Below the pieces are notes generated by a model. It was given only the letters and a program-made list of their open reading frames with translations. It was not told the origin of the DNA and made no database searches. The translations under genes were made by a program, and so were the position numbers. Shown piece by piece: positions 19,915-27,717 of a stretch of DNA of 40,033 nucleotides (within the stretch, counting starts at the first letter, position 1; each line of letters begins with the position of its first letter). This DNA comes from Candidatus Kuenenia stuttgartensis (GTDB lineage: Bacteria; Planctomycetota; Phycisphaerae; Phycisphaerales; SM1A02), in the NCBI GenBank assembly GCA_945870915.1, contig CAMBUI010000003.1, positions 1-40,033 on the forward strand. The letters are read 5' to 3'.

Positions 19915-22194
19915 TCACGCCCTGCTGAGCTTCGCGTGCTCGACGATGAGCGTCTTGAGGCCGACGGAGCGGAACGAGATGCGCGCCCGCGTACCGCCGA
20001 AGCCGCGCGCGAGGAACTCGACCTTGCCCACGCCGAAGATCGGGTGCCGCACCATCGAGCCCACCGGGAAGACCTCGCCCACATCCATGTCGCCGAACGC
20101 CTCGGGGTCGTCGTACTCGACGCGACCGCCGGCGTAGCGCTCGGTGAGGTCGGTCCGCTGCACGTCCTTGGCCGGGATCTCGCGCAGGAACTCGCTCTCG
20201 ATCGACGCCTGGCGCACGCCGCGCACGGTGCGCACGGCGGCGGAGCTCACCATCAGGAGCCGCTCGGCGCGGGTCATGCCCACGAAGAGCAGGCGGCGCT
20301 CCTCCTCGACCCCGTCCTCGCCCTCGCTCGAGGCGCGCATGTGCGGCAGCAGGCCGTTCTCGACGCCGATCACCGCGACGGTGTCGAACTCGAGGCCCTT
20401 GGCGGCGTGGAGGGTCATGAGCGTCACGCTCCCCTGCTCCGGATCGATCGCGTCGGCGTCGGCCACCAGCGAGACGGTCTCGAGCCAGAGGCGGAGCGCG
20501 TCGCCGAGCGTCGGCAGCGCGGGCAGCGACGACGCGAGGTCGGCATCGGCGGGCGGAGGTGCGGTCGGATCGTCGCCGTCCGCCGTGGGATCGTCGTCGG
20601 GCAGCCGGAACTGCGCCGCGGCCGAGACGAGTTCCTCGAGGTTGGCGACGCGCTCGCGCTCGTCGACGGTGGCGTGGTCGGCGAGCCGGTCGAGCCCGCT
20701 CGTCTCGAGGACCTCCGACACGAACGACGCGAGGTCGCCGGGCACGCGGGTGTCGAGCGCCTGCGCGAAGTCGCGGATCATTGCGACGAAGCCGTCGACC
20801 GCCTTGCCGATCTTGCCCGACACGATGCCGGCGTTGGCCGCCTGCGCGAAGGCGGAGATCAGCGGGATGCCGTGCGACACCGCGTAGGCCTCGATCTTGC
20901 GCACGCTGGTGTCGCCGATGCCGCGGGCGGGCGTGTTGATGATGCGGCGGAGCGAGACCTCGTCGCGCGGGTTGGCGCAGACGCGCAGGTACGCCATCGC
21001 GTCCTTGATCTCCTTGCGGTCGTAGAACGCGGTGCCGCGCGCGACGGTCGAGGGGATCATGCGCCGGCGCAGCGCGTCCTCGACCACGCGCGAGAGCGCG
21101 TTCATGCGGTAGAGCACGGCCATCGCGCGCCACGGGACGCCTGCGGCCGCGCGTTCGGCCAGCATGTCGGCGACCCTGTCGGCCTCCTCGTGCTCGTCGT
21201 TGGCCTTGAGCAGGCGCACGGGAAGGCCGTCGCCGAGGCCGGTGGTGAGATCCTTGTGCTTGCGACGGCGGTTGTGCGCGATCAGGCCGGCCGACGCCGA
21301 CACGATGTGCGCGGTGGAACGGAAGTTCTCGCCGAGCGGAATCACGCGCGCGCCGGGGAACTGCTCCTCGAAGTCGAGGATGTTCGAGATGTCGGCGCCG
21401 CGCCAGCCGTAGATCGACTGGTCGGGATCGCCGACCACGAACAGGTTCCGCGAGCGCTCCGCCAGCGCGTGCGCGATGACGAACTGCGCGTGGTTGGTGT
21501 CCTGGTACTCGTCGACCAGCACCCAGCGGTGGCGGTTCTGCAGCAGGTCGCGCACCTCGGCGTCGTTGCGCAGCAGGAGCGCGACCTTGAGCAGCAGGTC
21601 GTCGAAGTCGACGGCGTTGGAGCGGGTGAGGGTGTCCTCGTAGGCCTTGTAGGCCTTCGCGACCGAGCGGCTCCAGAAGTCGTTGGCCTCGGCGAGGTAG
21701 GCCGCCGCGTCGCGCAGCGCGTTCTTCGCGTCGGAGATCTCGGCGAGCACGCTCGCGGGCGTCCACTGGGTGTTCGAGAGCCCCGCCTCCTCGATGGACG
21801 CCTTGATCGCGTCCTTCTGGTCGCCGGCGTCGTAGATCGAGAATCCGGCCTGCAGTCCGATGCGGTCGCCGAAGCGGCGCAGGATCGCGGCGCAGTGCGA
21901 GTGGAAGGTCGACACCACGAGGCCGGTCCGCGAGCCATCCTCGCGGGCGACGAGCTGCGACACGCGCTCGCGCATCTCGCCCGCGGCCTTGTTGGTGAAG
22001 GTCAGCGCGAGGATCTGCCAGGGCGGCACACCGCGCTCGATGAGGGCCGCGATGCGGCGGGTGATGACGCGCGTCTTGCCCGAGCCCGGGCCCGCGAGGA
22101 CGAGCGCGGGTCCCCCGCCGTGCGACACCGCCTCGCGCTGGGCGGGCGTGAGCTTGTCGAGCAGTCCGGGATTGATGTCGGGGCGCAGTGTCAC
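19915..22194 (-). CDS. pcrA: UvrD/PcrA-family superfamily 1A DNA helicase
   Basis: GPALVLAGPGSGKTRVITRRIAALI (Walker A), ILALTFTNKAAGEMRERV, VLVDEYQDTNHAQF, VVGDPDQSIYGWRGADISNIL, LGENFRSTAHIV, VTLMTLHAAKGLEFDTVAVIGVENGLLPH, LLFVGMTRAERLL. GTG start at 22194. Confidence 0.95.
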   Translation of the reverse strand: MTLRPDINPGLLDKLTPAQREAVSHGGGPALVLAGPGSGKTRVITRRIAALIERGVPPWQILALTFTNKAAGEMRERVSQLVAREDGSRTGLVVSTFHSHCAAILRRFGDRIGLQAGFSIYDAGDQKDAIKASIEEAGLSNTQWTPASVLAEISDAKNALRDAAAYLAEANDFWSRSVAKAYKAYEDTLTRSNAVDFDDLLLKVALLLRNDAEVRDLLQNRHRWVLVDEYQDTNHAQFVIAHALAERSRNLFVVGDPDQSIYGWRGADISNILDFEEQFPGARVIPLGENFRSTAHIVSASAGLIAHNRRRKHKDLTTGLGDGLPVRLLKANDEHEEADRVADMLAERAAAGVPWRAMAVLYRMNALSRVVEDALRRRMIPSTVARGTAFYDRKEIKDAMAYLRVCANPRDEVSLRRIINTPARGIGDTSVRKIEAYAVSHGIPLISAFAQAANAGIVSGKIGKAVDGFVAMIRDFAQALDTRVPGDLASFVSEVLETSGLDRLADHATVDERERVANLEELVSAAAQFRLPDDDPTADGDDPTAPPPADADLASSLPALPTLGDALRLWLETVSLVADADAIDPEQGSVTLMTLHAAKGLEFDTVAVIGVENGLLPHMRASSEGEDGVEEERRLLFVGMTRAERLLMVSSAAVRTVRGVRQASIESEFLREIPAKDVQRTDLTERYAGGRVEYDDPEAFGDMDVGEVFPVGSMVRHPIFGVGKVEFLARGFGGTRARISFRSVGLKTLIVEHAKLSRA

Positions 22195-22344: not shown

Positions 22345-22374
22345 TTGCGATGTTCGCATTTTGTTTGGTATCGT
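22345..22374 (+). promoter_or_regulatory. Candidate sigma70-like promoter driving the dcd leader region
   Basis: TTGCGA (22345-22350), 18-nt spacer, TATCGT (22369-22374), in a locally AT-richer segment. Visual match only. Confidence 0.35.
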
Positions 22375-22671
22375 GCAAGGGAGGCCGCGCCCTGCGGACA
22401 GGTCTCGACACAGGTTGTCCACCAGGCGCGCATCCGGTTCTGTCGGTTGCGTGCCAGCAGTACCCTTCGCGACCCCAGTGCTGAACGGAAGCAGGGCGAA
22501 CGGGAGGCGGACTGGACAGGCGGGGACTGAAGGCAGGAGTGCAGCGCTGAAGGAGTCGTTCAGGGTCGGGGTGTTCGAAGGATGGAGCGCTCCCCCGCCC
22601 ATCGCCCGCCGAAGGGTCGAACCGCGTTTCCGACGCGTCCTCGCCGAGTCGGTTCGACGCGGTTCCGGACA

Positions 22672-22992
22672 TTCCAAATACATCCTGAAGAAAGTTGGAA
22701 AAGAACTACCTCTTGGGGTGCTTCTCCCTTGCGACCCCAATAGGTTGGGGTAGGATCAGCCCCGCGGTCGACTGGTAGAGTCGTTTCGTCGTCCGCGCCG
22801 ACCAACTTGAAGGTTCTCGGACCTCTGCGGGATTCGCGAGATTTCCTGCCGACTCTAGAGAACAGCGTTGCATGGGCAACGCGAAACGTCTGAGGCAACA
22901 GGCTGTCTGGATGACGGCCTGAAACAAAGCACCCCGTCTCGATGCGCATGGTGGCGCGCGCGACGGGGACCGTGCGGGCCGGTGGGGCCCGC
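22672..22992. ncRNA. Candidate structured RNA or leader upstream of dcd-nrdJ (strand unproven)
   Basis: Consecutive perfect or near-perfect hairpins: TTGGGGT/ACCCCAA/TTGGGGT triad (22713-22751); CGCGG-CGACT/AGTCG-CCGCG (22763-22797); GCGTTGC-ATGG-GCAACGC (22865-22882); CAGGCTGTC-TGGAT-GACGGCCTG (22899-22921); CCCCGTC/GACGGGG (22932-22968); GCGGGCC-GGTGG-GGCCCGC (22974-22992). No credible ORF. Confidence 0.5.
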
Positions 22993-23006
22993 GTCCGGTG
23001 TGCTGC

Positions 23007-23681
23007 ATGCCAGTGTTGAGTGACACCCAGATCCGCGAGCTCGTGCACATCGAGCCCTTCGCGTCGAACGAGAAGCGGCCAGGCGTGGTCAGCTTCGGCG
23101 TGTCGAGCTATGGCTACGACGTCCGCGTCGGAACCAAGTTCAAGATCTTCACCAACGCCACCAGCGGCGGCACCGCGGTCGTCGACCCGAAGAACTTCAC
23201 CAACGACCTCTTCGTCACCATCGACACGGCGGTCACCGGCCGCGACCACATCATCATCCCGCCGAACTCCTTCGCGCTCGCCGAGACGGTCGAGGAGATC
23301 CATGTCCCGCGCGACATCCTGGCGATCTGCGTCGGCAAGTCGACCTACGCGCGCTGCGGCATCATCGTGAACGTCACCCCCCTCGAGCCCGAGTGGCGCG
23401 GCAAGGTCACGATCGAGATCTCCAACACGACGCCGCTTCCGGCCAAGATCTACGCCAACGAGGGCATCGCGCAGATGGTCTTCCTCAAGGCCGACCGCGT
23501 GTGCTCCATCAGCTACGCCGACAAGAAGGGCAAGTACCAGGACCAGGCGGGACTCACCCTCCCCATGGTTGATGGAATCAGGGTCGATGGCATCACGGTT
23601 GATGGCATCACCGCCCTTGCCCCCAACTCCGCGTCCTCCACCCCGTGCTGCAGCAGCCGGGTGCCGGCCGGAGCCCACTGA
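23007..23681 (+). CDS. dcd: dCTP deaminase with repeat-derived C-terminal extension
   Basis: [102 protein letters not shown]. Confidence 0.94.
23567..23611 (+). repeat. 15-bp tandem repeat, three copies, at the 3' end of dcd
   Basis: GGTTGATGGAATCAG / GGTCGATGGCATCAC / GGTTGATGGCATCAC, encoding [15 protein letters not shown]. Confidence 0.9.
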
Positions 23682-23736: not shown

Positions 23737-23790
23737 CCGACAACGATCCGACAACGATCCGACAACGATCCGACAACGATCCGACATCGA
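23737..23790 (+). repeat. 11-bp tandem repeat upstream of nrdJ
   Basis: CCGACAACGAT x4 perfect (23737-23780), then degenerate CCGACATCGA; about 85 bp upstream of the nrdJ ATG. Confidence 0.95.
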
Positions 23791-23874: not shown

Positions 23875-26800
23875 ATGAAGATCTCGCGACGCTTCACCAA
23901 GTCCGGCCAGAACGTCTATGACACCGTGGAATGGACCAAGAAGTCCAGCCGCATCTCGAACTCCGACGGCTCGACCGTCTTCGAGATGAAGGATGCGGAG
24001 ATCCCCGCGTCCTGGAGCCAGCTGGCGACGGACATCGTGGTGAGCAAGTACTTCCGCAAGGCCGGCGTGCCGCAGGTCGACGCGAGCGGCAACCCGGTCG
24101 TCGACGACGCGGGCAAGCCCGTCACCGGCCCGGAGAAGTCGGTGAAGCAGATCGTGCACCGCCTCGCGGGCTGCTGGACCCACTGGGGCGAGAAGTTCGG
24201 CTACTTCTCGACGAAGCGCGACGCCGAGGCGTTCTACGACGAGCTCGCGTACATGCTGCTCACGCAGATGGCCGCGCCGAACAGCCCGCAGTGGTTCAAC
24301 ACCGGCCTCAACTACGCGTACGGCATCTCGGGTCCGGCGCAGGGCCACTGGATCGCCGACCACCGCACCGGCGCGACCAAGCTCGCGACCGACGCCTACA
24401 CCCACCCGCAGCCGCACGCGTGCTTCATCCAGGCGGTGAAGGACGACCTCGTGGGCGAGGGCGGCATCATGGACCTCTGGACGCGCGAGGCGCGCCTCTT
24501 CAAGTACGGCTCGGGCACCGGCACCAACTTCTCGCAGTGCCGCGGTGAGAACGAGCCGCTCTCGGGCGGCGGCAAGAGCTCCGGCCTGATGAGCTTCCTC
24601 AAGATCGGCGACCGCGCCGCGGCCGCCATCAAGTCGGGCGGCACCACCCGCCGCGCCGCCAAGATGGTCTGCCTCGACCTCGACCACCCCGACATCGAGG
24701 GCTTCGTGAACTGGAAGGTCCGCGAGGAGATCAAGGTCGCCGCGCTGGTCGAGGGCATGAAGGTCCTCGGCGAGGACCAGAAGAAGCTCGCCGAGAAGTT
24801 CAAGCTCAAGCTCGACTACGACTTCAACGGCGAGGCCTACTACACGGTCAGCGGCCAGAACTCGAACAACTCGGTGCGCATCCCCGATGCGTTCTTCGAC
24901 GCGATCGACGCCGACAGCGACTGGCAGCTGCTCCGCCGCACCGACGGCAAGGTCGCCAAGACCATCAAGGCGCGCGAGCTCTGGGAGGAGATCAACTTCG
25001 CCGCGTGGCGCTGCGCCGATCCGGGCGTCCAGTACGACACGACCATCAACGCGTGGCACACCTGCCCCGCGGGCGGCCGCATCAACGCCAGCAACCCGTG
25101 CTCCGAGTACATGTTCCTCGACAACACGGCGTGCAACCTCGCGTCGATCAACCTGCTCAAGTTCTACGACTCCCAGACGCGCCGCTTCGACCTCGAGGGC
25201 TACGAGCACGCGATCAACCTCTGGACGATCGTGCTCGAGGTGTCGGTGCTCATGGCGGCGTTCCCGTCCAAGGAGATCGCCGACCTCTCGTGGCGCTACC
25301 GCACGCTCGGCCTCGGCTACGCCAACCTCGGCGCGATGCTGATGCAGGCGGGCATCCCCTACGACAGCGAGGAAGGCCGCGCCGTCTGCGGCATGCTCTC
25401 CGCGATCCTGACCGGCCGCTCGTACGCCGAGAGCGCCCTGCTCGCGGCCGAGCACGGACCGTTCGCCGGCTACGCCGAGAACCGCGAGAACATGCTGCGC
25501 GTGATCCGCAACCACCGCCGCGCCGCGCTGGGCATGTCGCGCGACAGCAGCGAGTACGAGGCGCTCCGCATCCGCCCGGTGCCGATCGACCACGCGCTGG
25601 TCAAGGCCGGCCGCATCAACTTCGCCAACGCCGACAAGATGCTCGAGCGCTCGGTCGCCTGCTGGGACGACGCCCTCAACTACGGCGAGAAGTTCGGCTT
25701 CCGCAACGCGCAGACCACCGTCATCGCGCCGACCGGCACCATCGGCCTGCTCATGGACTGCGACACGACGGGCGTCGAGCCCGACTTCGCGCTCGTCAAG
25801 TTCAAGAAGCTCGCCGGCGGCGGCTACTTCAAGATCGCCAACCAGTCGCTGCGCCCGGCCATCCGCGCGCTCGGCTACACCGCCGAGCAGGCCGACGACA
25901 TGGTCACCCACGTCATGGGCTCGCTCAGCCTCGATGTGAAGCTCCCCGCGGCCGACGGCAGCGCGGCGGCGGGCGCGGGCTCGTTCCGCGACTTCCTGCT
26001 CTCGAAGGGCTACACCCACGAGCAGCTGGTCGCCGTCGAGAACTCGCTCCCGACGGTGTTCGAGATCGCGTTCGCCTTCAGCGCCTGGTCGATGCCGACC
26101 GGCGTGCTCGAGGCCTGCGGCGTCGACGCCGGGGCGGCCAAGAACGACTTCTCGTTCAACGGCCTCCGCGCGCTCGGACTCACCCGCAAGCAGATCGACG
26201 CCATCAACCGCGCGATCTGCGGCACGCAGACCATCGAGGGCGCGCCGCACCTCAAGGACGAGCACCTCGCGGTGTTCGACTGCGCGAACCGCTGCGGCCC
26301 GCTGGGCACGCGCTTCATCAAGCCCGAGGGCCACATCCGCATGATGGGCGCCTCGCAGCCGTTCATCACCGGCGCGATCTCGAAGACCATCAACCTCCCC
26401 ACCGACGCGTCGGTCGAGGACATCGGCGCCTGCTACCGCCTGAGCTGGGAGCTCGGCCTCAAGGCCAACGCGCTCTACCGCGACGGCTGCAAGCTGAGCC
26501 AGCCGCTCTCGACCAAGTCGGACAAGGAAGAGAAGGACGACGACAAGATCGACGCGAAGGTTGACGCGAAGGTTGACGCGAAGGTTGACGCGAAGGTTGA
26601 CGCGGTCAAGGTCGAGGCGAAGCTCGCCGAGCCCATCACCGACGCGGCCGAGCAGAAGGAGCTCCTCACCGAGGCGCTCGCCGCCGAGGCCGTCACCGCG
26701 ATTCCCGCGGCGCTGCCGGCCGAGGTGCGCGAGATCGTCGTCGAGCGCGTCGTCGAGCGGATCATCGAGCGTCCGATGCGCCGCCGCCTGAACGACACCC

Positions 26801-27717
26801 GCGAGTCGATCACCCACAAGTTCAACGTCGCCGGACACGAGGGCTACCTCATCGCCGGCCTCTACGAGGACGGTCGCCCCGGCGAGCTGTTCATCACCAT
26901 GGCCAAGGAAGGCTCGACCATCGGCGGCCTGATGGACTCGCTCGGCACCGCGGTGTCGGTCGCGCTCCAGTACGGCGTGCCGGTCGAGAGCCTGGTGAAC
27001 AAGTTCGCCCACCAGCGCTTCGAGCCGATGGGCATGACCACCAACGCGGACATCCCGTTCGCGAAGAGCCTGGTCGACTACATCTTCCGCTGGCTCGGAA
27101 TGCAGTTCATCCCCGGCTACCGCGAGCAGAACTCGCCGCGTCGCCCGGTGGCGTCGCCCGAAGTTCCCGTGGTTGGCGGCATGGTTGGCGGCATGGTTGG
27201 CGGCATGGTCGGCGTCGAGACCCGTTCGGACAACCGCAAGGAGGACGCATGCGCTCAAGGACCGAGCTCAGGAACGAGCCCCGCCGCGAATGCCGGCGCT
27301 TCTGCCGGCACCATGCAGACGGGCATGCAGACGGGCATGCAGACAGGATGGTCGACTCGTCGGGAGAACGCGCTGGAGGCCGTGAAGGCCGATCGCGCGA
27401 AGTCGGAGTACGGCGATTCGGGCGCGAGCTCGATCGCGCCGTCGGCCATGCCGACCTCCCCGATCACCACTTCGCGCGTCACGACTTCGCACAGCATGAG
27501 TGCCGTGACCGAGACGATGATCGGCGACACCCGCGTGATCGAGGCCGTGACCGCCGTCGAGCGGACCGCGAAGACGGTGGCCGCGAATGCGCTCGATGCG
27601 TCGAACGCGGCGCTCATGGGCGACGCGCCGGCATGCGATGGCTGCGGTTCGATCACGGTGCGGAACGGCACCTGCTACCGCTGCCTCAACTGCGGCAACT
27701 CCATGGGTTGCAGCTGA
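23875..27717 (+). CDS. nrdJ: Vitamin B12-dependent (class II) ribonucleoside-diphosphate reductase
   Basis: MAAPNSPQWFNTGLNYAYGI, KYGSGTGTNFSQCRGENEPLSGGGKSSGLMSFLKI, NPCSEYMFLDNTACNLASINL, NAQTTVIAPTGTIGLLMDCDTTGVEPDFALVKFKKLAGGGY, C-terminal zinc ribbon CDGCGSITVRNGTCYRCLNCGNSMGCS. Confidence 0.97.
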   Translation: MKISRRFTKSGQNVYDTVEWTKKSSRISNSDGSTVFEMKDAEIPASWSQLATDIVVSKYFRKAGVPQVDASGNPVVDDAGKPVTGPEKSVKQIVHRLAGCWTHWGEKFGYFSTKRDAEAFYDELAYMLLTQMAAPNSPQWFNTGLNYAYGISGPAQGHWIADHRTGATKLATDAYTHPQPHACFIQAVKDDLVGEGGIMDLWTREARLFKYGSGTGTNFSQCRGENEPLSGGGKSSGLMSFLKIGDRAAAAIKSGGTTRRAAKMVCLDLDHPDIEGFVNWKVREEIKVAALVEGMKVLGEDQKKLAEKFKLKLDYDFNGEAYYTVSGQNSNNSVRIPDAFFDAIDADSDWQLLRRTDGKVAKTIKARELWEEINFAAWRCADPGVQYDTTINAWHTCPAGGRINASNPCSEYMFLDNTACNLASINLLKFYDSQTRRFDLEGYEHAINLWTIVLEVSVLMAAFPSKEIADLSWRYRTLGLGYANLGAMLMQAGIPYDSEEGRAVCGMLSAILTGRSYAESALLAAEHGPFAGYAENRENMLRVIRNHRRAALGMSRDSSEYEALRIRPVPIDHALVKAGRINFANADKMLERSVACWDDALNYGEKFGFRNAQTTVIAPTGTIGLLMDCDTTGVEPDFALVKFKKLAGGGYFKIANQSLRPAIRALGYTAEQADDMVTHVMGSLSLDVKLPAADGSAAAGAGSFRDFLLSKGYTHEQLVAVENSLPTVFEIAFAFSAWSMPTGVLEACGVDAGAAKNDFSFNGLRALGLTRKQIDAINRAICGTQTIEGAPHLKDEHLAVFDCANRCGPLGTRFIKPEGHIRMMGASQPFITGAISKTINLPTDASVEDIGACYRLSWELGLKANALYRDGCKLSQPLSTKSDKEEKDDDKIDAKVDAKVDAKVDAKVDAVKVEAKLAEPITDAAEQKELLTEALAAEAVTAIPAALPAEVREIVVERVVERIIERPMRRRLNDTRESITHKFNVAGHEGYLIAGLYEDGRPGELFITMAKEGSTIGGLMDSLGTAVSVALQYGVPVESLVNKFAHQRFEPMGMTTNADIPFAKSLVDYIFRWLGMQFIPGYREQNSPRRPVASPEVPVVGGMVGGMVGGMVGVETRSDNRKEDACAQGPSSGTSPAANAGASAGTMQTGMQTGMQTGWSTRRENALEAVKADRAKSEYGDSGASSIAPSAMPTSPITTSRVTTSHSMSAVTETMIGDTRVIEAVTAVERTAKTVAANALDASNAALMGDAPACDGCGSITVRNGTCYRCLNCGNSMGCS
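26551..26598 (+). repeat. 12-bp tandem repeat in nrdJ (DAKV x4)
   Basis: GACGCGAAGGTT x4 perfect. Confidence 0.95.
27171..27206 (+). repeat. 12-bp tandem repeat in nrdJ (VGGM x3)
   Basis: GGTTGGCGGCAT x3 perfect, then a partial fourth copy. Confidence 0.95.
27313..27348 (+). repeat. 12-bp tandem repeat in nrdJ (MQTG x3)
   Basis: ATGCAGACGGGC x2 plus ATGCAGACAGGA. Confidence 0.95.

Follow-up and report, generated by a model that had tools for sequence, protein, structure and literature searches.

The dcd-nrdJ operon of the window, which is the whole stretch of 40,033 nucleotides that was analysed, is probably (at roughly 0.6 in our estimate) under two-level control, where NrdR acts on transcription and a folded leader acts on translation, with CsrA as the guessed regulator of the leader. 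The segment upstream of dcd is three different things, namely operator and promoter DNA, a variable stretch and a structured leader RNA. The window makes up contig 3 in a draft assembly of 2.7 Mb from a freshwater planctomycete; its matches within the genus, in the named collection, are for the most part Planctomycetota assemblies from lake and pond metagenomes. Two blocks upstream of dcd are common to the same-genus genomes, at about 22691-22757 and at about 22891-23010. When the draft genome was searched with PF02867, nrdJ was the only gene matched. The genes around the segment are the following:

19918-22194, minus strand: UvrD-type helicase, divergent from dcd
23007-23681, plus strand: dcd, dCTP deaminase, with its ATG at 23007 (Pfam DCD, 120 bits)
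23875-27717, plus strand: nrdJ, class II B12-dependent ribonucleotide reductase (Pfam Ribonuc_red_2_N and Ribonuc_red_lgC)

In the control that we propose, a rise in dATP would place a NrdR tetramer on both of its boxes (22703-22750), and the bound NrdR would block RNA polymerase because box 2 sits between the -35 and -10 elements. In the leader, the helix P3 would pair the weak ribosome-binding GGUG and the helix P0 would abut the start codon, and the folded leader would limit the initiation of dcd. A regulator reading the hairpin loops would then set the balance; our guess is CsrA, on the GGA loop of P1 or, in a second genus, of P2b.

Two stretches near the operon also carry sequence words of other kinds. 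Positions 22350-22450, upstream of the dcd promoter and beside the divergent uvrD, contain GTTC-N7-GTTT/C, which resembles a LexA box of the alphaproteobacterial type, and a DnaA-box-like ACAGGTTKTCCAC followed by CTGTCGG; the second of these is also found in genus g17. Between dcd and nrdJ, positions 23738-23784 are a short tandem repeat with the unit CGACAACGATC.

The elements assigned to the promoter DNA are:

22703-22718, no strand: predicted NrdR box 1, GAACTACCTCTTGGGG, with the core CTACCTCTTG of the form C-W-A-N4-T-W-G, 32 bp from box 2
22729-22734, plus strand: -35 element TTGCGA, with TTGC equally far from box 2 throughout the family
22735-22750, no strand: predicted NrdR box 2, CCCCAATAGGTTGGGG, a palindrome with the core CAATAGGTTG
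22751-22756, plus strand: -10 element TAGGAT, at a conserved position and with the pattern T-A...T

The preliminary description had seen two triads of short words upstream of dcd, in each of which one arm can pair with either neighbour, and had taken such exclusive pairings as typical of switch or attenuator RNAs. All the words it quoted are found where it placed them. Triad 1 is made of 7-mers, and only 0.7% of shuffles contain such a triad; we take it to be a NrdR operator in promoter DNA, with binding predicted from the sequence. Each box has the conserved C and, nine positions on, the conserved G. The spacer between them is 16 bp, and the palindrome at 22734-22751 has its partner centred 32 bp upstream. 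This layout, exact or relaxed, is found in most other members of the genus with an assembled promoter as well as in other genera of the family, and almost every genus sampled has box 2 ahead of dcd. Among 42 dcd leaders of the family, a relaxed box pair was found at a core-to-core distance of 31 bp in 16 and of 32 bp in 12; the remaining distances between 11 and 69 bp gave 0 to 6 leaders each. The control for this box-pair test, E. coli nrdHIEF, scores at 31 bp, with a few other distances scoring too. Published NrdR spacers are 15-16 bp, with the boxes overlapping the polymerase site (PMC12051234; PMC9110341), and the operator is another member of this known box-pair kind. The genome encodes nrdR (TIGR00244, 151 bits, above the cut-off).

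In nearly all genera TTGC and TA...T stand on either side of box 2 at a fixed distance, so that box 2 occupies the whole 16-bp spacer of the promoter. We infer a transcription start near 22763. Triad 1 is probably a DNA element outside the transcript, since transcription would start downstream of it; it is conserved as an inverted repeat of the promoter, which speaks against its role as an RNA switch. The link to the nucleotide pool, suggested earlier for the leader, is retained, but it runs via the NrdR boxes in the DNA.

Between the inferred start and the structured RNA lies a stretch in which we see no conserved feature:

22763-22889, plus strand: variable 5' part of the leader, holding triad 2 (z -0.57), without sign of function

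This stretch is poorly conserved and unalignable among relatives, with a length of about one to several hundred bases. Triad 2, made of 5-mers, is at chance level, as at least one 5-mer triad arises in 93% of shuffles, and it falls in sequence that relatives do not have in common. The shuffle statistics and the operator evidence together rule out the triads as an RNA switch, and no conserved alternative pairing was found in the leader. The whole 321-nt segment (22672-22992), which had been called hairpin-dense, does fold better than shuffles on the two strands (z -3.3 and -3.2), but the excess comes only from 22891-23007 (z -3.8) and not from the segments with the triads, 22672-22762 (z -0.49) and 22763-22890 (z -0.57).

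The structured part of the leader consists of the following elements:

22890-23006, plus strand: conserved structured leader RNA, recognised by covariation and model matches, directly before the dcd ATG
22901-22919, plus strand: hairpin P1, GGCUGUC-uggau-GACGGCC, with GGA in the loop and double-sided changes in 6 of 7 pairs
22928-23005, plus strand: closing helix P0, 22928-22930 with 23002-23004/5, with A-U/G-C exchanges
22932-22968, plus strand: P2, CCCCGUCU/CGACGGGG, with the inner hairpin P2b, GCGC-AUGGUG-GCGC
22969-22999, plus strand: P3, ACCG-[UGCGGGCC GGUGG GGCCCGCG]-UC-CGGU, with double-sided changes in 9 of 12 pairs

The fold, three hairpins and a short closing helix in 117 nt, is a real structured element as judged by covariation. 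P1, P2 with P2b, and P3 came out of a first alignment, which comprised 14 members of the genus; the short P0 was added afterwards and is the weakest helix (79% of cells paired). Within this one genus, double-sided changes were found in 18 of 34 pairs, making 55 cells compared with 18.4 +/- 3.9 in shuffles and at most 13 when slid. After a second genus had been added (18 genomes in all), they were found in 26 of 34 pairs and in 100 cells, against 31.3 +/- 4.8 in shuffles and at most 23 when slid, in an alignment that was fitted to the structure of the model and so leans towards it. These compensatory changes in the dcd upstream regions of relatives strongly support the earlier proposal of a cis-regulatory RNA before dcd-nrdJ. 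P2 has double-sided changes in 7 of 8 pairs and P2b is nearly invariant, and the P3 loop GGUGG is present in 18 of 18 aligned sequences. Cells with G-U (37) outnumber those with A-C (10), which places the structured RNA on the plus strand. At the level of sequence, then, comparison has shown the helices, strand and position of the RNA, as it has the box pair and the promoter layout. Covariation in a leader does not by itself make it a switch.

Two further pairings were considered and rejected. A pseudoknot between GGUG of the P3 loop and either an upstream CACY or downstream dcd codons is not kept across species in the alignments, and for a start-codon closing helix GGCA/UGCC, GGCA is present in only 5 of 14 complete leaders.

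With the covariance model, the element is found in 15 of 16 genus members and in four of the second genus, the latter at 42-52 bits; in each case it stands immediately before dcd, as the only copy in its genome. The model's match in the window, 22889-23024, extends into the first dcd codons, and weak matches before dcd in other genera were discarded as probably driven by the dcd codons within the model. Outside the genus, the phylum and class samples gave no match under strict filters, because of which weak relatives may be missed. In the Dcd tree, both element-bearing genera and the AGGA-hairpin genus (g60) fall to one side of a split with weak support; the leader RNA may have arisen once or more than once. 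A hairpin ACC-GGUGG-GGU, with the loop of P3, occurs about 115 nt upstream of the dcd ATG in genus g44 (L070, L125).

Rfam scans of the window and of 14 loci of relatives, at gathering and at permissive thresholds, returned nothing relevant. As no family matched, the leader RNA is not a known housekeeping RNA, a match that the preliminary description had named as refuting, and it is uncatalogued in the libraries searched. The nrdJ RNA motif has been reported upstream of nrdJ in streptomycetes (PMC8079986). Its model, RF03034, stayed below the gathering cut-off in the window and at the locus in seven genomes, and its best match in the window's own genome lies elsewhere with 20.5 bits versus a cut-off of 40.3. 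A cobalamin-responsive leader, also suggested earlier, found no support, as RF00174 at the gathering cut-off matched neither in the window nor in its own genome; canonical cobalamin riboswitches are found elsewhere in 6 of 7 genomes tested and not at the dcd locus.

Control of dcd at translation is likely on the modelled fold, since P3 pairs away the weak ribosome-binding GGUG. For most members of the genus, the pairing of this word, just before the ATG, with the anti-Shine-Dalgarno sequence amounts to only about -5.3 to -6 kcal/mol; many other genera have better such sites. The 3' strand of P3a takes up most of GGUG, and the computed fold leaves the word mostly paired. Translational control is also likelier than attenuation because no terminator U-run follows the structure.

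CsrA is our leading guess for the regulator of the leader, a tentative one, with binding predicted by analogy. Each of the 14 aligned genus members has GGA in its P1 loop, and the second genus has it in the P2b loop rather than in P1. In P2b the usual loop is AUGGUG; G005 has AGGAA there, and g17 has AGGAU or AGGAC. Hairpins with an AGGAN pentaloop occur in the dcd leaders of 9 of 11 members of a third genus (g60), of 3 of 4 in g17 and of 6 of 14 in the window's genus and of 4 of 39 genomes (four genera) elsewhere in the family; the antisense strand gave 0 of 68 and the flanking controls 0-1. This statistic was conceived after the loops had been seen. The AGGAN hairpins match the published repeat of CsrB, CAGGA(U/A/C)G in hairpin loops (PMC7652899), and the GGA-bearing loops resemble CsrA sites. 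Canonical CsrA, with the leucine and arginine equivalent to L4 and R44 of the E. coli protein, is encoded in 20 of 20 genomes; being found in every genome tested, it does not discriminate. Counting against CsrA, the GGA loop sits in different hairpins in the two genera, the window's own loop is UGGAU and not the preferred AGGAU, and CsrA, as a candidate, does not explain the invariant GGUGG of the P3 loop. A second GGA site in CsrA targets usually lies at the ribosome site; here that site carries GGUG rather than GGA, and GGA is found in the P2b loop of G005 and g17.

The hairpin of g60 (L049, L054, L096, L098-L105) is small and covarying, with the loop AGGA(A/C/U), and stands about 27 nt before dcd and just before an AAGGGG ribosome site. 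Two CsrA-type genes were seen in the genome of the window, G000:C23 and G000:C54 (85 and 52 bits), and also in most related genomes.

The leader allows other readings. A metabolite riboswitch, responding to a dNTP, another nucleotide or a form of cobalamin and gating dcd-nrdJ translation, would account for covarying helices in a 5' UTR, for strongly conserved loops (GGUGG, GCAUGGUGGC) and for the association with a single gene, right where translation of a nucleotide-pool operon begins. We nevertheless regard it as unlikely: only two genera carry the RNA, the P1 and P2b loops differ between them, which is unusual for an aptamer core, and neither RF03034 nor the cobalamin models match, in genomes of which six in seven have cobalamin riboswitches elsewhere. 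The narrower proposal of a novel riboswitch class, in which the 117-nt leader senses a deoxynucleotide or related metabolite and gates dcd and nrdJ translation beneath NrdR, is if anything a little less probable. It is doubtful, too, that the leader is a constitutive standby site, in which AGGA and GGUG loops mimic Shine-Dalgarno sequences and recruit the ribosome to a start codon without a good one. The loop words are complementary to the anti-Shine-Dalgarno sequence, and pairing in this genus is weaker than in most other genera sampled, but a general initiation device should recur, whereas this one is a single copy per genome, only before dcd, and g60 has its AGGA hairpin together with the Shine-Dalgarno-like AAGGGG. 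Binding of Dcd, NrdJ or another protein to the leader, repressing its own synthesis, would fit an RNA tied to dcd in every case; we hold this improbable and know of no autogenous leader binding for dCTP deaminase or class II RNR enzymes.

A leader peptide of 23 codons (22948-23019), translationally coupled to dcd, has very little to recommend it. Nine of 15 genomes have this frame, which closes 10 nt inside dcd, though in G007, one of the nine, it is shifted inside; it stops early in G006 and G015, has no start in G004 and G005, is fused in frame to dcd in G001 and lies in another frame in G009, and changes in the stems alter residues yet keep base pairs. Just as implausible is a separate small RNA, or a terminator on the minus strand. 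A simple scan does find the terminator-like match that had been noticed, at 22945-22929, but its T-run is not kept in relatives, no minus-strand gene needs a terminator, and the asymmetry of G-U over A-C favours a structure on the plus strand. Two-level control by NrdR and a folded leader is the reading that we prefer.

The predicted operator would extend NrdR control of RNR genes to a planctomycete family, and it lies within its promoter in a clean arrangement; the leader would be an uncatalogued structured RNA on an operon of dNTP synthesis, a pathway for which few RNA-level controls are known to us. Should CsrA bind the leader, the supply of DNA precursors would be linked to a regulator of carbon state; to our knowledge, few studies have addressed CsrA targets in this phylum. 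If a metabolite binds it, the leader would be a new riboswitch class.

Among known systems, the nrdJ RNA motif (RF03034) is also a structured RNA upstream of nrdJ, and the cobalamin riboswitch (RF00174) is likewise a structured leader on the operon of a B12-dependent enzyme, but the leader RNA here matches neither model and has no visible cobalamin core. CsrA/RsmA target leaders such as that of glgC likewise have a GGA hairpin loop and cover the ribosome site; here the conserved fold (P0-P3) is much larger, with one clear GGA loop in most members, and the CsrA site is putative. The predicted operator resembles those of Streptomyces nrdRJ and E. coli nrdHIEF, where two palindromic boxes about three helix turns apart likewise overlap the promoter of an RNR operon. 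It differs from them in its GC-rich half-sites (CCCCAA/TTGGGG), in box 1 being an imperfect palindrome, and in having dcd as the first gene of the operon.
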